Shown in pieces: positions 7,387 through 54,870 of a stretch of DNA of 64,000 bases; positions within the stretch are counted from its first letter, which is position 1, and every line of letters starts with the position of its first letter. A program made the position numbers and the translations under genes. Where the stretch lies: positions 3,166,733-3,230,732 of the forward strand of contig CP070812.1 in assembly GCA_020344015.1 (NCBI GenBank), in the 5' to 3' direction. The stretch comes from Gemmatimonadota bacterium (lineage in GTDB: Bacteria > Gemmatimonadota > Gemmatimonadetes > Palauibacterales > KS3-K002). Below the pieces are notes generated by a model. That model saw only the letters and a list, made by a program, of their open reading frames with translations. It was not told the DNA's origin and did no database searches.

Positions 7387-7705
7387 GCCCTCACTCATGT
7401 CGCGTGGTGGTCGGGTACGGCCTGAGTCCCTCGCTTCATTGTCGCGCGGCTTCAGGCTGGGAACCGGACCGGGCAGCGGCGCGCCAAATGTCCGCTCCGG
7501 ACCTCAGGCCGCAACCTCCCTATCGCGGTACAGGGGCGGAATTTCAAACGCTGCAGCGCCCCTCGGGTTGACAATCCGTTGACCCGTTCTCTCCACGTTA
7601 AGGGGCATCGTGAGAACGGCCGGTTCCATTCTCAATTTAGATGCTCTGATGCTCGAGTAGTCGATTAGTCATGGATTCCCGAATTCCCATCTTTGAAGGA
7701 TCTGC
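7387..7705. other. 319-nt intergenic region with a repeat at its right end
   Basis: No convincing gene was found. The region holds two TTGAC(A/C) boxes at about 7569 and 7580 without well-placed -10 partners. Its last 55 bases hold a copy of the dispersed GAATTCCC repeat, followed at once by the GAAGGA ribosome binding site of the ComEA-like gene. Confidence 0.5.
7652..7690. repeat. Dispersed GAATTCCC-type repeat, copy 1
   Basis: This 39-nt copy reads CTCGAGTAGTCGATTAGTCA followed by GGATTCCCGAATTCCCAT with one or two bases between. It aligns, with small indels, to the right arm of the element at 33985-34104: same order of CTCGAGTA, TTAGTCA and TCCCGAATTCCCAT blocks. It ends about 5 nt before the ribosome binding site of the next gene. 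Only the right-arm half is present. Confidence 0.6.
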
Positions 7706-27105: not shown

Positions 27106-28712
27106 GCGGGCCGGACGGTCGGCGCTGGAGAGTGAATCTCCTGCTGGCGGTGCTGGTCGGGATCGTCGTTGCCGCCGTGGGGGTTTGGGCGCAGAACGAG
27201 TCGCTGGTCGGCGTCAATTACGACGACGGGATCTACGCGCTTCTGGCCAAGGCTCTCTCGGACGGCGAGGGTTACCGGGTGACGTTTCTTCCGGTGGATG
27301 TCCCCGGTGTGAAGTACCCGCCGCTCTACCCGATGAGCCTCGTCCCCTTCTGGGTGTTCAGCGGATCCCAGGAGGCGGCCCTCTCCGCTATGAAGGTAGC
27401 GAACGGTATCTACATCGGCGTCGCCGCGGGCCTCTTCGTCTTCCTGCTTGTGGACCTCGGTATCCTCGTCACACCGTTGGCGGTGGTGGTCGCGCTCATC
27501 GGTTTTGTGGCGGGCTCGATGATGCTGGTGACCAGCGGCCTGCTATCGGAGCCGCTTTATCTGGTTCTCCTGTTCCTCACCCTCTGGCTGGCGGATCGAC
27601 CGGGCGAGAAACCGACGTACGGTTGGCTTGTCGCGGTCGGAGCTCTAGCGGGAGTCGTGGTGCTCACCCGCACCGTCGGCTTGGCGCTCGTGGGAGCCGT
27701 GCTGTTGGCGACCTGGCTCCGCTGGGGTCGCCGCTCCGCGCTCATCGCCGGGTCTGCGGCGCTCCTCGTTGCTGCCCCCTGGATCGTGTATGCGCTCTTC
27801 CGGTCGGGTCGTGTGCCGGACCTCCTCGTCCCCGGTTACGGGTCGTACGGGCGGTTGTACCTGGCTTTGATCGCTGACACGCCGGTCGCCGCTCTCGACG
27901 TTGCGGTCACCAACGTGGGAGCCACGCTGCAGATTCTGGGTGGCAAGCTCGTGCCCGAGGCGGGAGCAACCGTCGAGTCGTTCGTCGGAGCCGTGTTGAT
28001 CGTGCTCGCGGCATTCGGCTCGCGCCGGATCTTTCGCCGAGCCCCGGCGACGGCGACCTATGCGTGGCTCTACCTGGTCCTGGTCGCTCTCTGGGTATTT
28101 CCACCCTTCCGTTTCGTCTTCATCCTCTTCCCGCTGCTACTCGCCCTCGCCGCCGTCGGCTTTCTGGCTCTGGCTCGGCGCGCCGAGGAGAAAGCGGAGG
28201 CCAGGCTGCGTACCGGTTTCCGAGTCGGCTTTCTCATCGCCGGAACGGCTGTCCTCGTCCACCAGGCCTACCTGGAGTTCGGTGCGGTGCGCGCCCGGGT
28301 GTGGGACGGTGGGCAGCTGATCAAGTCGGCAGCGGGCCAGGAGCTGATCGACTGGGTCGCCGAGAACACTGAGGGGGATGCTGTGGTGGCGTTCGAGTTC
28401 GATCCGCTCATCGCCCTGCACACCGGCAGGCGGGCCGTCCCGAACAACTATTTGCCTGTGCATGCGTGGTATAGTCGCGGTGATCCGCCGGCGGAAAGCC
28501 TGGCGCGACTGTTCGCCGGGATGGAGGTGGACTATGTGGCGGTGAGGCGGCACGTGCCGGCAGCGACCGAACCGATCGATCGGCTGCTGGGAGCGTACCC
28601 GGGGAGCCTCGAGCTCGACTACGTGACGCCGGGGGGCGTTTTGGTCTTCAAAGCCCATCTCCAGGTACTGTGGGAGTCGGGGGTTCGGGGAATCGGGGAT
28701 TCGGGGAGGTAG
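27102..28712 (+). CDS. GT-C membrane glycosyltransferase family protein with repeat-derived C-terminus
   Basis: The 536-residue polytopic protein carries the loop motif VNYDDGIYALLAKALS and then VKYPPLYPM, both placed as in GT39/GT83-like enzymes. About ten hydrophobic helices and a short soluble C-terminal domain (from about 410, FEFDPLIALHTGRRAVPNNY) follow. The last 12 or so codons (ESGVRGIGDSGR) are encoded by a GGGGATTCGGGG-type repeat that continues to the stop, so the native C-terminus has probably been replaced or extended by repeat insertion. It starts within the previous gene (ATGA). Confidence 0.72.
   Translation: MSGPDGRRWRVNLLLAVLVGIVVAAVGVWAQNESLVGVNYDDGIYALLAKALSDGEGYRVTFLPVDVPGVKYPPLYPMSLVPFWVFSGSQEAALSAMKVANGIYIGVAAGLFVFLLVDLGILVTPLAVVVALIGFVAGSMMLVTSGLLSEPLYLVLLFLTLWLADRPGEKPTYGWLVAVGALAGVVVLTRTVGLALVGAVLLATWLRWGRRSALIAGSAALLVAAPWIVYALFRSGRVPDLLVPGYGSYGRLYLALIADTPVAALDVAVTNVGATLQILGGKLVPEAGATVESFVGAVLIVLAAFGSRRIFRRAPATATYAWLYLVLVALWVFPPFRFVFILFPLLLALAAVGFLALARRAEEKAEARLRTGFRVGFLIAGTAVLVHQAYLEFGAVRARVWDGGQLIKSAAGQELIDWVAENTEGDAVVAFEFDPLIALHTGRRAVPNNYLPVHAWYSRGDPPAESLARLFAGMEVDYVAVRRHVPAATEPIDRLLGAYPGSLELDYVTPGGVLVFKAHLQVLWESGVRGIGDSGR
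28672..28709. repeat. Dispersed GGATTCGGGG-type repeat, copy 2
   Basis: Four to five degenerate units of the type GG(A/G)(A/T)TCGGGG run in tandem up to the stop codon of the preceding gene. They match, in inverse orientation, the right part of the 53456-53690 element (CCCGAATCCCCGAATC). This copy is translated. Confidence 0.6.
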
Positions 28713-32620: not shown

Positions 32621-33985
32621 GTGAAGGTACTCGTTGTAGACGACGAAGCCGGGGTGCGTCGCACCCTGTCGATGATCCTCGAGGATGAGGGGTATCAGGT
32701 CATCACCGCCTCCGACGGCAAGGAAGGCCTGGATCGTGCCCTGAAGGAGGAGCCCGACCTCATCCTCTGCGACATCCGCATGCCGCGGATGGATGGGCTC
32801 GAGTTCCTCGAACAATACCGCAAGAAGAACGGGCAGGCACTCGTTATCACGATTACCGCCTACGGCAGCACCGAGTTGGCCGTCGAGGCGATGAAAAAGG
32901 GCGCCTACGACTACCTGCCGAAGCCGTTCACCACCGCCGAGGTCGTGCTCACGCTCCGCAAAGCCGAGGAACGCGAGAAACTGCGTCGCGAGGTCACCCG
33001 GCTACGCAAACGCGTCAAAGCCGACCAACGCTACCCCGAGATCGTTGCCAAGAGTTCCGGGATGCGTGAGGCCGTCGAGCTCGCCACAAAGGTCGCACAG
33101 CATCCTTCCACCGTCCTGATTACCGGTGAAAGCGGTACCGGCAAAGAGCTCATCGCCCGGCTGATCCACGGCGCCAGCCCGCGGGCTAGCCGCGAGTTCG
33201 TGCCGATCAACTGCGGCGCGATCCCCGAGAACCTGCTGGAGTCGGAACTGTTCGGCCACGTCAAGGGCGCCTTTACCGGCGCTCACGTCGACCGGGCCGG
33301 GCTGTTCGAGGAGGCTGATGGCGGCTCCCTGTTCCTCGACGAGATCGGCGAGCTACCGTCCCAGCTCCAAGTCAAGCTGCTGCGTGCCCTCCAGGAGGGT
33401 GAGATCCGGCGCGTCGGTGACAGCGCCGCCCGCAAGGTAGATGTCCGGCTCGTAGCTGCGACTGCCCGCGATCTCGAGCAAGAGGTTCGCGAAGGAAATT
33501 TCCGCTCCGACCTCTACTACCGGATCAACGTGGTGCGCATTCACCTGCCACCGCTGCGACAGAGGACGGAGGATATTCCGCCGCTCACCCGCCACTTCAT
33601 AGAGCGCTTCGCGAGGCAGCTGGCCATCGACGTGACCGGCTTCGAGCCCGGAGCGATGAAGCTCCTGCTCGGCCACCCTTGGTACGGAAACGTGCGGCAG
33701 CTGGAGAACGTCGTCGAGCGGGCGATGGTGCTGGCCGAGGGATCGACCGTCAAGCCGGAGGATCTGCCGGACTTCATCCGCCACCCGGAGACGGCGGTGG
33801 AGGGGCCGTTCGAGTCGTTGCCGGCCGACGAACTCTCGATCAAGAAGCAGACGGCCGAGTTGGAGCGACGCCTCATCGGCCGTGCCCTTCAAGTGACCGA
33901 CGGCAACCGCACCAAGGCGGCAGAGCTGCTCGATCTGAGCTACCGGGCGCTGCTGTACAAGATCCGCGACTACGGCCTGGGGTAG
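32621..33985 (+). CDS. Sigma-54 dependent response regulator (NtrC family)
   Basis: The 454-residue activator has a receiver with D7-D8 and phospho-acceptor D51 ([13 protein letters not shown]). The AAA+ domain has GESGTGKE, an intact GAFTGA sigma-54 loop and [11 protein letters not shown] Fis-type HTH follows ([20 protein letters not shown]). It pairs with the adjacent kinase. Located between pilA and the minor pilins, it is a second candidate regulator of the pilus genes. No close sigma-54 site was found just upstream of the minor pilins, so its targets are unknown. Its stop codon is the first base-triplet of a repeat element. Confidence 0.9.
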
Positions 33986-34104
33986 GGAATTCGGCAATCC
34001 ATGACTACTTGAATACCTGACTACTCGACTTTGGCATAGCCCGGTTCTGATCTCGAGTATTCGAGTATTGAATTAGTCAGGTAAGCATTGAATCCCGAAT
34101 TCCC
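33985..34104. repeat. Dispersed inverted-repeat element, copy 3
   Basis: The 120-nt element is bounded by a perfect 10-bp inverted pair, GGGAATTCGG (33985-33994) and CCGAATTCCC (34095-34104). Inside, the arms continue imperfectly (GACTACTTGAATACCTGACTA against TTGAATTAGTCAGGTAAGC). It starts at the last base of a stop codon. Its right arm aligns with the copy at 7652. It may fold as a long hairpin in the mRNA or serve as a boundary element. Confidence 0.65.
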
Positions 34105-51434: not shown

Positions 51435-51986
51435 ATGGACGACATGAGAATGCGTGGAACGACAATCGTCGCAGTCCGACGTGACAAAAGCGTCGCGCTT
51501 GGCGGCGACGGCCAGGTGACCGTTGGGGACACCATCGTAAAGACCCAGGCGAGCAAGGTGCGCGCTCTCAAGGACGGAGCTGTGCTCGCCGGCTTCGCCG
51601 GGTCGGTCGCCGACGCGCTGACGCTGTTCGAGAAATTCGAGGAGAAGCTCGATCGCTTTCCGGGCAATCTGCCCCGTGCCGCGGTCGAGCTGGCGAAGGA
51701 TTGGCGGAGCGATCGAATCTTGCGTCGCCTGGAGGCGCTCCTCGCGGTCGTCGATGCGAATCGTTCGTACCTGCTGTCCGGTAGCGGCGAGGTCATCGAG
51801 CCCGACGATGATATCTTGGCCATCGGCAGCGGTGGCCCGATGGCGTTGGCGGCGGCGCGGGCGCTGAGTGCACATTCCGAACTGAGCGCGCCGGAGATCG
51901 TTCGCCGCAGCCTCGAGATCGCCGGCGAAATCTGCATTTACTCGAACACAGAAATCACCGTACTGGAGCTTGGAAAAAAGAGCTGA
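51435..51986 (+). CDS. hslV: ATP-dependent protease subunit HslV
   Basis: HslV is the proteasome-related peptidase of the HslUV complex. The sequence carries [12 protein letters not shown], where removal of the leader exposes the catalytic N-terminal Thr. [23 protein letters not shown], the [14 protein letters not shown] pattern and the C-terminal TVLEL follow. It has 183 residues, near the usual size. Met codons at 51435, 51444 and 51450 precede the Thr; GGAAG suits the first. Its stop overlaps hslU (TGATG). Confidence 0.95.
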
Positions 51987-53455
51987 TGAACGACTCGCTT
52001 CCCTCCCAGCCCGAGAGCCTGGTCGACGAGGTGCGCGGTAGCAGGCCGGTACTTCACGACGAGCTGACACCGCGGCAGATCGTCGCCGAACTCGACAAGT
52101 ACGTTATCGCGCAGGACGCGGCGAAGAAGGCTGTGGCGATCGCCCTCAGAAACCGTTGGCGGCGACAGCAAGTCGCGGAGGACCTCAGGGACGAGATCTT
52201 GCCCAACAACATCATCATGATCGGTCCCACCGGGGTAGGTAAGACCGAGATCTCGCGCCGCCTGGCCCGGCTGGCCGGCGCGCCCTTCATCAAGGTCGAG
52301 GCTTCCAAGTTCACCGAAGTCGGCTACGTGGGGCGCGATGTCGAGTCCATGGTGCGAGACCTCGTCGACATCTCCGTCAACATGGTGCGCGGTGAACGTG
52401 AGGACGAAGTTCAGGACGTGGCTGATGAGCGTGTCGAGGAGCGATTGCTCGATCTGCTCCTGCCGAGAGGTGAGGAGAAGAGCGCGGCGCCGGCGGCCTT
52501 TGTGGTGTCGCCGCGCGGCGAAGCCCTGGACCAGCGGCCCCAACCCGAGGAAGAAGACGAAGAGGCGCTCAAGGAGCGACGCAAGCGGACCCGCGAGAAG
52601 CTGCGAAGCCTGCTGCGGGATGGGAAGCTCGAGAACAAAGAGATCGAGATCGAAGTCACGCAGACGTCGTTCCCCGTCGTCGAGTTCCCCGGCATGGAGG
52701 GGATGGATTACAACGTCTCCGAGATGCTCCAGGAGATGTTGCCGAAGCGTAGCAAGAAGCGCTCGGTGTCTGTTTCGGAAGCGCGGCGCATCCTGCTCGC
52801 CGATGAGCTCGACAAGCTTGTCGATATGGACGACGTGGTGAACGAAGCGCTCGACCGAGTAGAGCAGATGGGGATCGTCTTCCTCGACGAGCTGGACAAG
52901 ATCGCCGGCGAACGAGGACCCGCTGGTGGGCCGGACGTCTCGCGGGGCGGCGTCCAGCGCGACCTGCTACCCGTGGTGGAAGGGTCGAACGTGCAGACCA
53001 AGTACGGCATGGTTCGGACCGACCACATACTCTTCATCGCCGCCGGCGCGTTCCATACCGCCAAGCCCTCGGACCTCATCCCGGAGCTCCAGGGACGTTT
53101 TCCGATCCGTGTCGAGCTTGCTTCGCTGACCGAAGCCGATTTCGTCAAGATCCTGACTGAGCCGAAGAATGCCCTGCTCACCCAGTATCGCGCACTCGTC
53201 GAGACAGAAGGGGCAGGCCTGCAGTTCAGCGACAGCGGCGTCGCCGAAGTCGCCCGAATCGCCGCCGATGTAAACCAGCGGATGGAGAACATCGGCGCGC
53301 GCCGACTCCACACCGTCCTTACAACCCTGCTCGAGGACATCATGTTCGATCTCCCCGAACTCGGCCCCAAGAAGATCCTCGTTGACGACGAGATGGTCCG
53401 CGAGCGGCTCGCCAAGGTCGTCAAGGACGAAGACCTGCGCCGCTACATTTTGTAG
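51986..53455 (+). CDS. hslU: HslU, ATPase subunit of the HslUV protease
   Basis: HslU unfolds substrates for HslV. The 489-residue AAA+ protein has Walker [10 protein letters not shown] (about 79-87), the pore motif GYVGRD, a charged intermediate domain (about 125-270) with a Glu/Arg-rich low-complexity stretch, Walker [11 protein letters not shown] and the sensor [15 protein letters not shown]. The C-terminal RRYIL tail docks into HslV. A tandem repeat array starts one base after the stop codon. Confidence 0.95.
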
Positions 53456-53690
53456 GGGAATCCGGGAATCCGGGAATCCGGGAATTCGAGATTCAGGAAT
53501 TCCGGGACGAGGGGACTGGAGAAGGCAAGTATCCGTGGAATCCGTGGAATCCGTGGAATTCGCCGAATTCCCGAATCCCCGGATACCACGGACTCCACGG
53601 ATGCCTCGGATTCTAGCCTTCTCCTGCCCCCAATCCCGAACTCCCAATCCCCGAATCCCCGAATCTACTGGTGCCAATTCCCGTTCCTGC
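53456..53690. repeat. Repeat-rich foldback region between hslU and gcvT, copy 4
   Basis: Four tandem 8-mers (three GGGAATCC, one GGGAATTC) cover 53456-53487. Three tandem 9-mers ATCCGTGGA cover 53531-53557. The latter can pair with CCACGGACTCCACGGAT (53586-53602, 16 of 17 bases), nested in GGAGAAGGC (53518-53526) and GCCTTCTCC (53616-53624). The right flank holds AATCCCGAACTCCC and CCGAATCCCCGAATC, complementary in type to the left 8-mers. The whole stretch therefore folds back on itself. Confidence 0.75.
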
Positions 53691-53754
53691 TAAATTGGCA
53701 GTCAGTGGTCTTCCGACGACAATTCTACTCGCTTTACGAATGACAGAGGGACCG

Positions 53755-54870
53755 ATGGCCAGCGACCTCAAGCGAACACCACTGTACGAGGAGCACTTGA
53801 AGCTGGGCGGCAAGATCATCCCCTTCGCCGGCTTTGAGATGCCTGTCCAATACCCGGCTGGAGTGTCGGCGGAACACCAGGCGGTGCGCGAGCACGCCGG
53901 GCTCTTCGACGTGTCGCACATGGGAGAGTTTCTGCTTGAGGGGGAGAGGGCCGCTGAGTTCGTGGACTATCTGGTGGCGAATGACATCTCGCGCCGCGAG
54001 TCGTGGCAGGCGACCTACTGTGTCATGTGCAATGAGCAGGGAGGGGTCGTTGACGATCTGCTGGTCTACAAGTTTCCGGATCGATTCCGGCTGGTAGTCA
54101 ACGCGGCGAACATGGAGAAGGACTTCGACTGGGTCTCCAGGTGCCTGGAGCGGTTCGGGCCAGACGGGGTCGAGCTCGTGAATGAGAGCGACGCCATCGC
54201 GCTCCTGGCGCTGCAGGGCCCCGATAGCGAGGCGATACTCACGCCACTCTCCGAGCTCGATCCGTCGACCCTCGGCTACTATCGGTTTGCCGAGTCGCGA
54301 GTGGCTGGTGAACCCTGCGTGGTGAGCCGGACCGGCTACACGGGCGAGGATGGCTTCGAGCTGTATTGCGGGCCAGACAGCGCGGCCAAGCTGTGGAACG
54401 CGCTGCTCGAGGCGGGCGGTGAGCGAATCCACCCGGTAGGACTGGGCGCGCGGGATACGCTCCGACTCGAGGCCGGGCTCGCGCTCTACGGGAGCGATAT
54501 CGACGATGAGACAACGCCGCTCGAGGCCGGCCTCGGTTGGACCGTCAAACTGGACAAAGGCGAGTTCGTCGGTCGGGACGCCCTGCTGGCTCAGAAAGAG
54601 AAGGGCCTGAAGCGCAAGCTCTGCGGCTTCGTCCTCGAGTCTCGCGGCTTCCCGCGCCCGGGCTACGAGATCCGCTGCGGCGGCGAGGCTGTCGGCACCG
54701 TCCGCAGCGGTACATTCGGACCCACGCTGGGCCAGGGGATCGGGACAGGCTACTTGCTGCCCGAGCTGGCGAAACCGGGCACCGAGTTAGAGATCGTGAT
54801 CAGGCAAGTGCCCAATGCTGGGGAGGTTGTGAAGATGCCCTTCTATAAGGAGGGCTCCGTCAAACGGTGA
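53755..54870 (+). CDS. gcvT: Aminomethyltransferase, glycine cleavage T protein
   Basis: GcvT transfers the methylene group from the aminomethyl-lipoyl H protein to tetrahydrofolate. The 371-residue protein has the usual landmarks: LYEEHLKLGGKIIPFAGFEM, DVSHMGEF, TYCVMCNEQGGVVDD and SRTGYTGEDGFE. GARDTLRLEAGLALYGSD carries the conserved folate-site Arg/Asp region. The ATG at 53755 is preceded by GAGGGA; an upstream in-frame ATG at 53671 would add 28 residues read from the repeat flank. The gcvH and gcvP genes are not in the window. Confidence 0.95.
   Translation: MASDLKRTPLYEEHLKLGGKIIPFAGFEMPVQYPAGVSAEHQAVREHAGLFDVSHMGEFLLEGERAAEFVDYLVANDISRRESWQATYCVMCNEQGGVVDDLLVYKFPDRFRLVVNAANMEKDFDWVSRCLERFGPDGVELVNESDAIALLALQGPDSEAILTPLSELDPSTLGYYRFAESRVAGEPCVVSRTGYTGEDGFELYCGPDSAAKLWNALLEAGGERIHPVGLGARDTLRLEAGLALYGSDIDDETTPLEAGLGWTVKLDKGEFVGRDALLAQKEKGLKRKLCGFVLESRGFPRPGYEIRCGGEAVGTVRSGTFGPTLGQGIGTGYLLPELAKPGTELEIVIRQVPNAGEVVKMPFYKEGSVKR

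Follow-up and report, generated by a model that had tools for sequence, protein, structure and literature searches.

An ORF-less tandem-repeat hairpin behind hslU in a Gemmatimonadota bacterium and its probable kinship with IVP-bearing elements

Between the hslU and gcvT genes of a Gemmatimonadota bacterium lies a spacer filled with short tandem and inverted repeats, and the question raised by this locus is what kind of element it holds. The locus belongs to a window of 64,000 nt, the whole stretch of DNA that was analysed, which corresponds to positions 3166733-3230732 of a 4.8 Mb, single-contig genome (G000). The reading that fits best, and that we consider rather probable, is that the hairpin is an ORF-less intergenic member of a family of IVP hairpins (after the "23S rRNA-intervening-sequence protein", IVP) related to the rRNA IVS, presumably transcribed, cut by RNase III and spread or maintained in trans. 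The features of the locus are the following (window coordinates):

51986..53455, plus strand: hslU, ATP-dependent protease ATPase subunit, the upstream neighbour (ORF and coding score; orthologues in 9 relatives)
53456..53666, no strand: whole element, a nested quasi-palindrome without an ORF (repeats and fold)
53456..53507, plus strand: outer left arm, tandem 8-mers GGGAATCC/GGGAATTC, four clean units
53508..53530, plus strand: left spacer GACGAGGGGACTGGAGAAGGCAA, purine-rich, with its pairing partner at 53612-53631 (inverted repeat; counterpart in the ORF-bearing copy)
53531..53559, plus strand: inner left arm, the core, three 9-mers ATCCGTGGA (tandem-repeat analysis)
53555..53581, no strand: tip, inner 8-mers or small palindrome GGAATTCGCCGAATTCCCGAATCCCC
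53580..53611, minus strand: inner right arm, inverted 9-mers (CCACGGA...)
53612..53631, minus strand: right spacer TAGCCTTCTCCTGCCCCCAA, pairing with the left spacer
53627..53666, minus strand: outer right arm, inverted 8-mers CCCCGAAT
53671..54870, plus strand: gcvT, glycine cleavage T protein (longest ORF, with a GTG start at 53671 inside the spacer)

The first-pass annotation had described nested tandem and inverted repeats over 53456-53690, and these are present, except that the repeat ends at about 53666 and the last ~24 nt of the 235-nt region lie outside it. Three copies of GGGAATCC followed by GGGAATTC occupy 53456-53487, and the array then decays up to 53507 (6.5 copies, 79%); the 9-mer array is perfect (ATCCGTGGA x3.2 at 53531-53559, 100% identity). 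One inverted pair joins 53511-53562 to 53580-53631 (52 nt, 83% complementary) and a second joins 53489-53507 to 53648-53666; the layers follow one another as outer 8-mers, purine-rich spacer, three 9-mers and inner 8-mers. The annotation was also right that the element starts directly behind hslU: the stop codon TAG is at 53453-53455 and the first GGGAATCC at 53456, which leaves a gap of 0 nt. The non-repeat tail contains TCTACTGGTGC, common to the sister species G001, whose spacer is free of the palindrome. On the downstream side, an alignment with G001 read by eye displays a conserved MASDLKRTPLYEEH and a preceding GAGGGA, which makes ATG 53755 a likelier start of gcvT than GTG 53671. A search of the window with Rfam returned a tRNA as its sole match and nothing on the element.

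The element is not alone in its genome. As a query against G000 it retrieved 109 matching pieces, which bears out the earlier suggestion of one repeat type with further genomic copies. A pattern of paired 9-mers matched 94 times in G000 against 5 for the reversed control pattern, and a pattern of three 8-mers matched 132 times against 0 for its control. Clustering of the matches yielded at least 48 dispersed elements, 34 of which contain the 9-mer core, that is, two or more 9-mer matches; 34 are two-armed and 14 one-armed. Viral contigs searched with the 8-mer array gave 0 matches. Across the wider set of genome contigs the 9-mer pattern occurs at 100 loci or more, many of them chance matches within coding sequence, and some of the loci listed are intergenic hairpins in Verrucomicrobiota, Bacteroidota, Kiritimatiellota and Bacillota. 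Because the 9-mer turns up both at chance coding sites and in distant phyla, it is in itself no proof of common descent.

Other repeats were noticed within the window. A hairpin behind a stop codon at 33985-34104 (TAGGGAATTCGGCAATCC...GAATCCCGAATTCCCA) has the same ends and another core, made of TCGAGTAT or GACTACT units, and the right half of this second hairpin family recurs at 7620-7690 (CTCGAGTAGTCGATTAGTCATGGATTCCCGAATTCCCA). At 28672-28707 there is a G-rich 8-mer array (GGGGATTCG x4.5) that lacks a clear right arm.

The most informative copy lies at positions 2500324-2500990 of G000, where both arms, in the same layer order, surround an ORF of 128 aa. Its product belongs to PF05635 (E 1.4e-15) and TIGR02436 (1.4e-22), the four-helix-bundle IVP, with 2RLD as the closest solved structure; the tip of the hslU element (53555..53581) is the position that this gene occupies in the ORF-bearing copy. 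Over almost their full length, the left and right arms at hslU match their counterparts in the ORF-bearing copy, with local scores of 99 and 120; when the left arm of that copy, the one arm that was shuffled, was randomised 200 times, it scored 39 at most against the hslU left arm. The arms of 11 other IVP genes scored 14-56 against the hslU arms, and one of the four IVP genes of G000 has arms of the hslU type. Membership of the proposed IVP-hairpin grouping goes by arms homologous to IVP-flanking arms of the same genome and by arms made of short tandem repeats, and the hslU element has both, the latter as 8-mers and 9-mers. With a 23S rRNA IVS it shares inverted terminal repeats that form a long stem; no IVP/S23p ORF lies between its arms, and its site is a spacer between protein genes rather than a 23S rRNA helix. 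The hslU copy is thus outside the 23S rRNA IVS class, being neither in rRNA nor ORF-bearing, and is best named an ORF-less IVP-hairpin element.

The association between IVP genes and inverted arms extends well beyond this genome. Inverted complementary arms (score 30 or higher, no further than 300 nt from the IVP gene) were found at 46 of 55 loci, compared with 2 of 110 control windows taken from the same loci (Fisher p 3e-29). Among relatives of the same class, chosen by PF05635 alone, 27 of 29 loci had arms; in other phyla the figure was 19 of 26, in a set partly selected, since it was reached via genomes containing the 9-mer. Plasmid records of named organisms (cyanobacteria, Azospirillum and Gemmatirosa), a set of 16 IVP genes not chosen by repeats, gave 9 with arms, including examples in Nostoc edaphicum, Nostoc UHCC 0302 and Azospirillum lipoferum, and a further set gave 7 of 12. 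The separate counts add up to 62 loci with arms among 83 IVP genes from several phyla, and to 3 among 166 control windows. The repeat unit is specific to the locus, with a best period of 7 in 22 and of 8 in 9 of the 38 arms above the threshold, and the IVP proteins are mainly basic (median pI 9.2). In the family f1, arms of G3-type 8-mers track one IVP clade (L192, L199, L203 and L205, with L198/L193 close; supports 97-98) and other clades bear other units; the clade members L187 and L204 are exceptions.

The association has its gaps. Nine of the 55 IVP genes have no arms, as is the case for some plasmid IVP genes in conserved operons, and IVP was not detected in 9 of 23 genomes with matching 9-mers, nor in Stenotrophomonas. 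In the order-mates f2 (~34 genomes), neither IVP genes nor 8-mer arms, the one repeat searched for there, were found. On cyanobacterial plasmids, IVP genes stand amid co-functional genes: cas10, IVP, cmr3 in one case, cas6, IVP, cas4 in another, and ribonucleotide reductase beta, IVP, alpha in a third. In Nostoc edaphicum the arms are built of TAGGGAG units and the IVP gene lies between the two ribonucleotide reductase genes. Among loci with such neighbours (L337, L328 and L326), the arms reach the threshold in L328 and L326 and fall below it in L337. The IVP genes of L327, L329, L330 and L331 lie within conjugative-plasmid clusters and lack arms; armless genes of this kind may represent a domesticated, non-element branch.

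How such elements change over time was approached by reading 22-odd gene ends of G000 by eye against their orthologues in G001. About nine of the G001 ends have an 8-mer hairpin minus the 9-mer core, about eight are empty, two have a hairpin of another family and two a short remnant. The hslU site is such a remnant (GGGAA...TTCCC), from which the palindrome is absent. These differences indicate that sites are gained, lost and reused and that cores turn over by species. At the empty orthologous sites, no clear target-site duplication or sharp boundary was seen by eye. At one gene end the two species have different hairpin families: the G001 locus (L323), orthologous to L225 of G000, contains a GGTGGTC hairpin like the arms of a G001 IVP gene (L183). 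The earlier idea that the hslU spacer is a composite of several insertions is answered in part by these comparisons. Several independent insertions are not favoured, since the layered order recurs in the ORF-bearing copy and the element looks inherited as a unit; a history in layers does survive, because elements of the relatives at these sites lack the 9-mer core, which must at some point have been gained within older 8-mer hairpins.

The same observations could in principle be explained by repeats that make themselves, in the absence of any mobile element: G-rich units would expand by slipped-strand mispairing, template switching would carry them between arms, and the products would be retained at gene ends as harmless or useful. 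Very similar G-rich units near stop codons vary in length between species and form stem-loops when inverted (PMC4692102), the different cores at shared sites of G000 and G001 fit a turnover in place, and one-armed copies (14 of the at least 48) are consistent with it too. However, the presence of a specific 9-mer core at 34 unlinked sites, together with a layer order common to the IVP-bearing copy, calls for a copying process, and arms of this type around IVP genes in many phyla would not be expected. Turnover of the repeats in place with later co-option is therefore an alternative that we regard as unlikely.

Still less probable is a miniature element of the REP/REPIN or MITE type, a palindrome moved in trans by a Y1 (RAYT) or DDE transposase. 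The hslU element is dispersed, palindromic, intergenic and multi-copy, and orthologous sites are empty in the sister species, all of which would suit such an origin. Yet Y1_Tnp (PF01797) is absent from G000, in a search whose control set was positive in 6 genomes; the arms lack fixed termini and are built instead of tandem repeats whose number varies, and the ORF-bearing copy codes for IVP and no transposase.

Of 39 element ends that face the 3' end of a gene, 29 are at most 18 nt from its stop codon, against 5 of 48 ends that face a 5' end and lie as close to it (p 7e-10). Genes for this count were called with a home-made codon-score caller checked on the hslU region, and genes whose overlap with an element exceeded 25 nt, commonly ORFs that extend across stop-free repeats, were left aside. 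The stops of several neighbouring genes fall inside the first repeat itself, for instance GGGAATTAG|GGATTCGGGG. The position next to stop codons yields a prediction on targeting or tolerance, one open to counting in any genome.

The claim that the region may act as an RNA structure gained support from folding. The 235 nt reach -118 kcal/mol as plus-strand RNA (shuffles -83.7 +/- 4.8, z -7.15), -144.4 kcal/mol as minus-strand RNA (z -9.1) and -64.6 kcal/mol as single-stranded DNA (z -7.3), and 0 of 200 shuffles matched the native stability in each of the three cases. Both outcomes that the annotation had named as refuting, a lack of other copies in the genome and a fold no stronger than that of shuffled sequence, are thus contradicted by the results. 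Arms pair slightly better with their own partner than with arms of other copies (mean -103 vs -94 kcal/mol, p 0.018), and the own partner ranked first in just 2 of 26 copies. This near equality indicates that the stem consists largely of consensus units common to the copies and that the compensatory signal is not strong. A transcription boundary had also been proposed for this region; as an intrinsic terminator it is unsupported, because a T-tract, looked for 3' of the hairpin, is absent. Hairpins of this size can protect mRNA 3' ends. The placement behind stop codons would suit an element recruited by the host, be it a terminator, an mRNA-stabilising hairpin or a nucleoid-protein site. The paired tandem 8-mer sites of Geobacter have been interpreted as IHF/HU sites (PMC2700814). 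The missing T-tract tells against the first of these roles, and at many loci the site is empty or otherwise filled in G001, which also argues against host recruitment; a regulatory origin of this kind has, in our judgement, very little chance of being correct. A reverse transcriptase acting in trans was rejected as well, PF00078 being absent from G000, G001, G004, G045 and G054.

The ORF-less IVP-hairpin element would probably operate like an IVS. In the mechanism that we propose, the complete form would consist of an IVP/S23 gene between inverted arms of short tandem repeats, on the plan of the 23S rRNA IVS but between protein genes. The hslU-gcvT transcript would fold the element into one long RNA hairpin, which RNase III would be expected to cut, and the cut hairpin would separate, and perhaps stabilise, the hslU 3' end. 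An insertion next to a stop codon would in that way be nearly harmless to both messages. ORF-less copies would be non-autonomous, being spread or homogenised via IVP encoded elsewhere, with IVP as the proposed recogniser of the repeat units. Mobility, the action of IVP in trans and a selfish or near-neutral nature are thus properties that such an element would be predicted to have.

That the best-matching copy carries an IVP gene suggests that hairpins of this sort form a widespread and little-noticed kind of intergenic element. A bolder generalisation, which we put forward tentatively and rate as somewhat less than probable, is that IVP genes mark a pan-bacterial class of tandem-repeat hairpins of which the 23S rRNA IVS is a special case. 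IVP would recognise and propagate its own unit without bringing along a transposase or reverse transcriptase, and ORF-less offspring would account for a large share of those bacterial tandem-repeat palindromes that lack an explanation (cyanobacterial heptamers, GGGNATC repeats, Geobacter octamers and ATCCGTGG hairpins). Families of such hairpins have so far been reported piecemeal and explained ad hoc, and for more than 25 years it has been an open question what rRNA IVS and the common 'four helix bundle protein' genes do and where they come from (PMC4990558). If IVP genes as a rule lie within inverted tandem-repeat arms, the IVS, the four-helix-bundle genes and the repeat hairpins become one puzzle. 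No description of IVP genes with tandem-repeat arms outside rRNA was found in a literature search to which subscription papers did not belong.

Several known systems resemble the element in part. The DGR accessory protein Avd has a PF05635-like fold, a homology noted in PMC10053308; the lack of PF00078 in the five genomes named above sets the element apart from the DGR. REP/REPIN sequences with their RAYT are likewise small dispersed palindromes behind genes, but RAYT is absent from G000 and the element has no tagged unit of 20-40 nt. Similar in design are the paired octanucleotide sites (classes 1-3) of Geobacter metallireducens, where 3-5 tandem 7-8-mers lie on opposite strands with variable spacing in dozens of places (PMC2700814); they differ in unit sequences and in their interpretation as IHF/HU sites.

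In Xanthomonas and Nostoc, GGGNATC and GGGGA(C/T)T units are enriched within 50 bp of stop codons, where they occupy the coding strand and also run over the stop itself; from one species to another the GGGNATC quadruplex repeats at a given site differ strongly in length, and inverted units form stem-loops (Rehm et al. 2015; PMC4692102). The element resembles them in its G-rich tandem units, often about four, its position next to stops and the differences from species to species at shared sites (PMC4692102). In contrast to these 7-mers, described as simple, it has 8-mers (GGGAATCC/GGGAATTC) and no 7-nt GGGNATC unit, and it adds a full hairpin, a 9-mer layer and an IVP-bearing relative. The 23S rRNA IVS of Coxiella burnetii has a 28-bp terminal stem, with tandem GACAGAT heptamers in its 5' region just ahead of the S23p ORF, and is excised by RNase III (PMC4990558). 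The hslU element differs in that it lies between protein genes, is layered from 8-mers and 9-mers, has no ORF, exists in tens of dispersed copies within one genome and would be cut by RNase III by analogy. The Coxiella IVS and the element family nevertheless have in common a long stem from terminal inverted repeats, short tandem repeats, an IVP/S23p ORF in the complete form and copies in which this ORF has decayed (PMC4990558).
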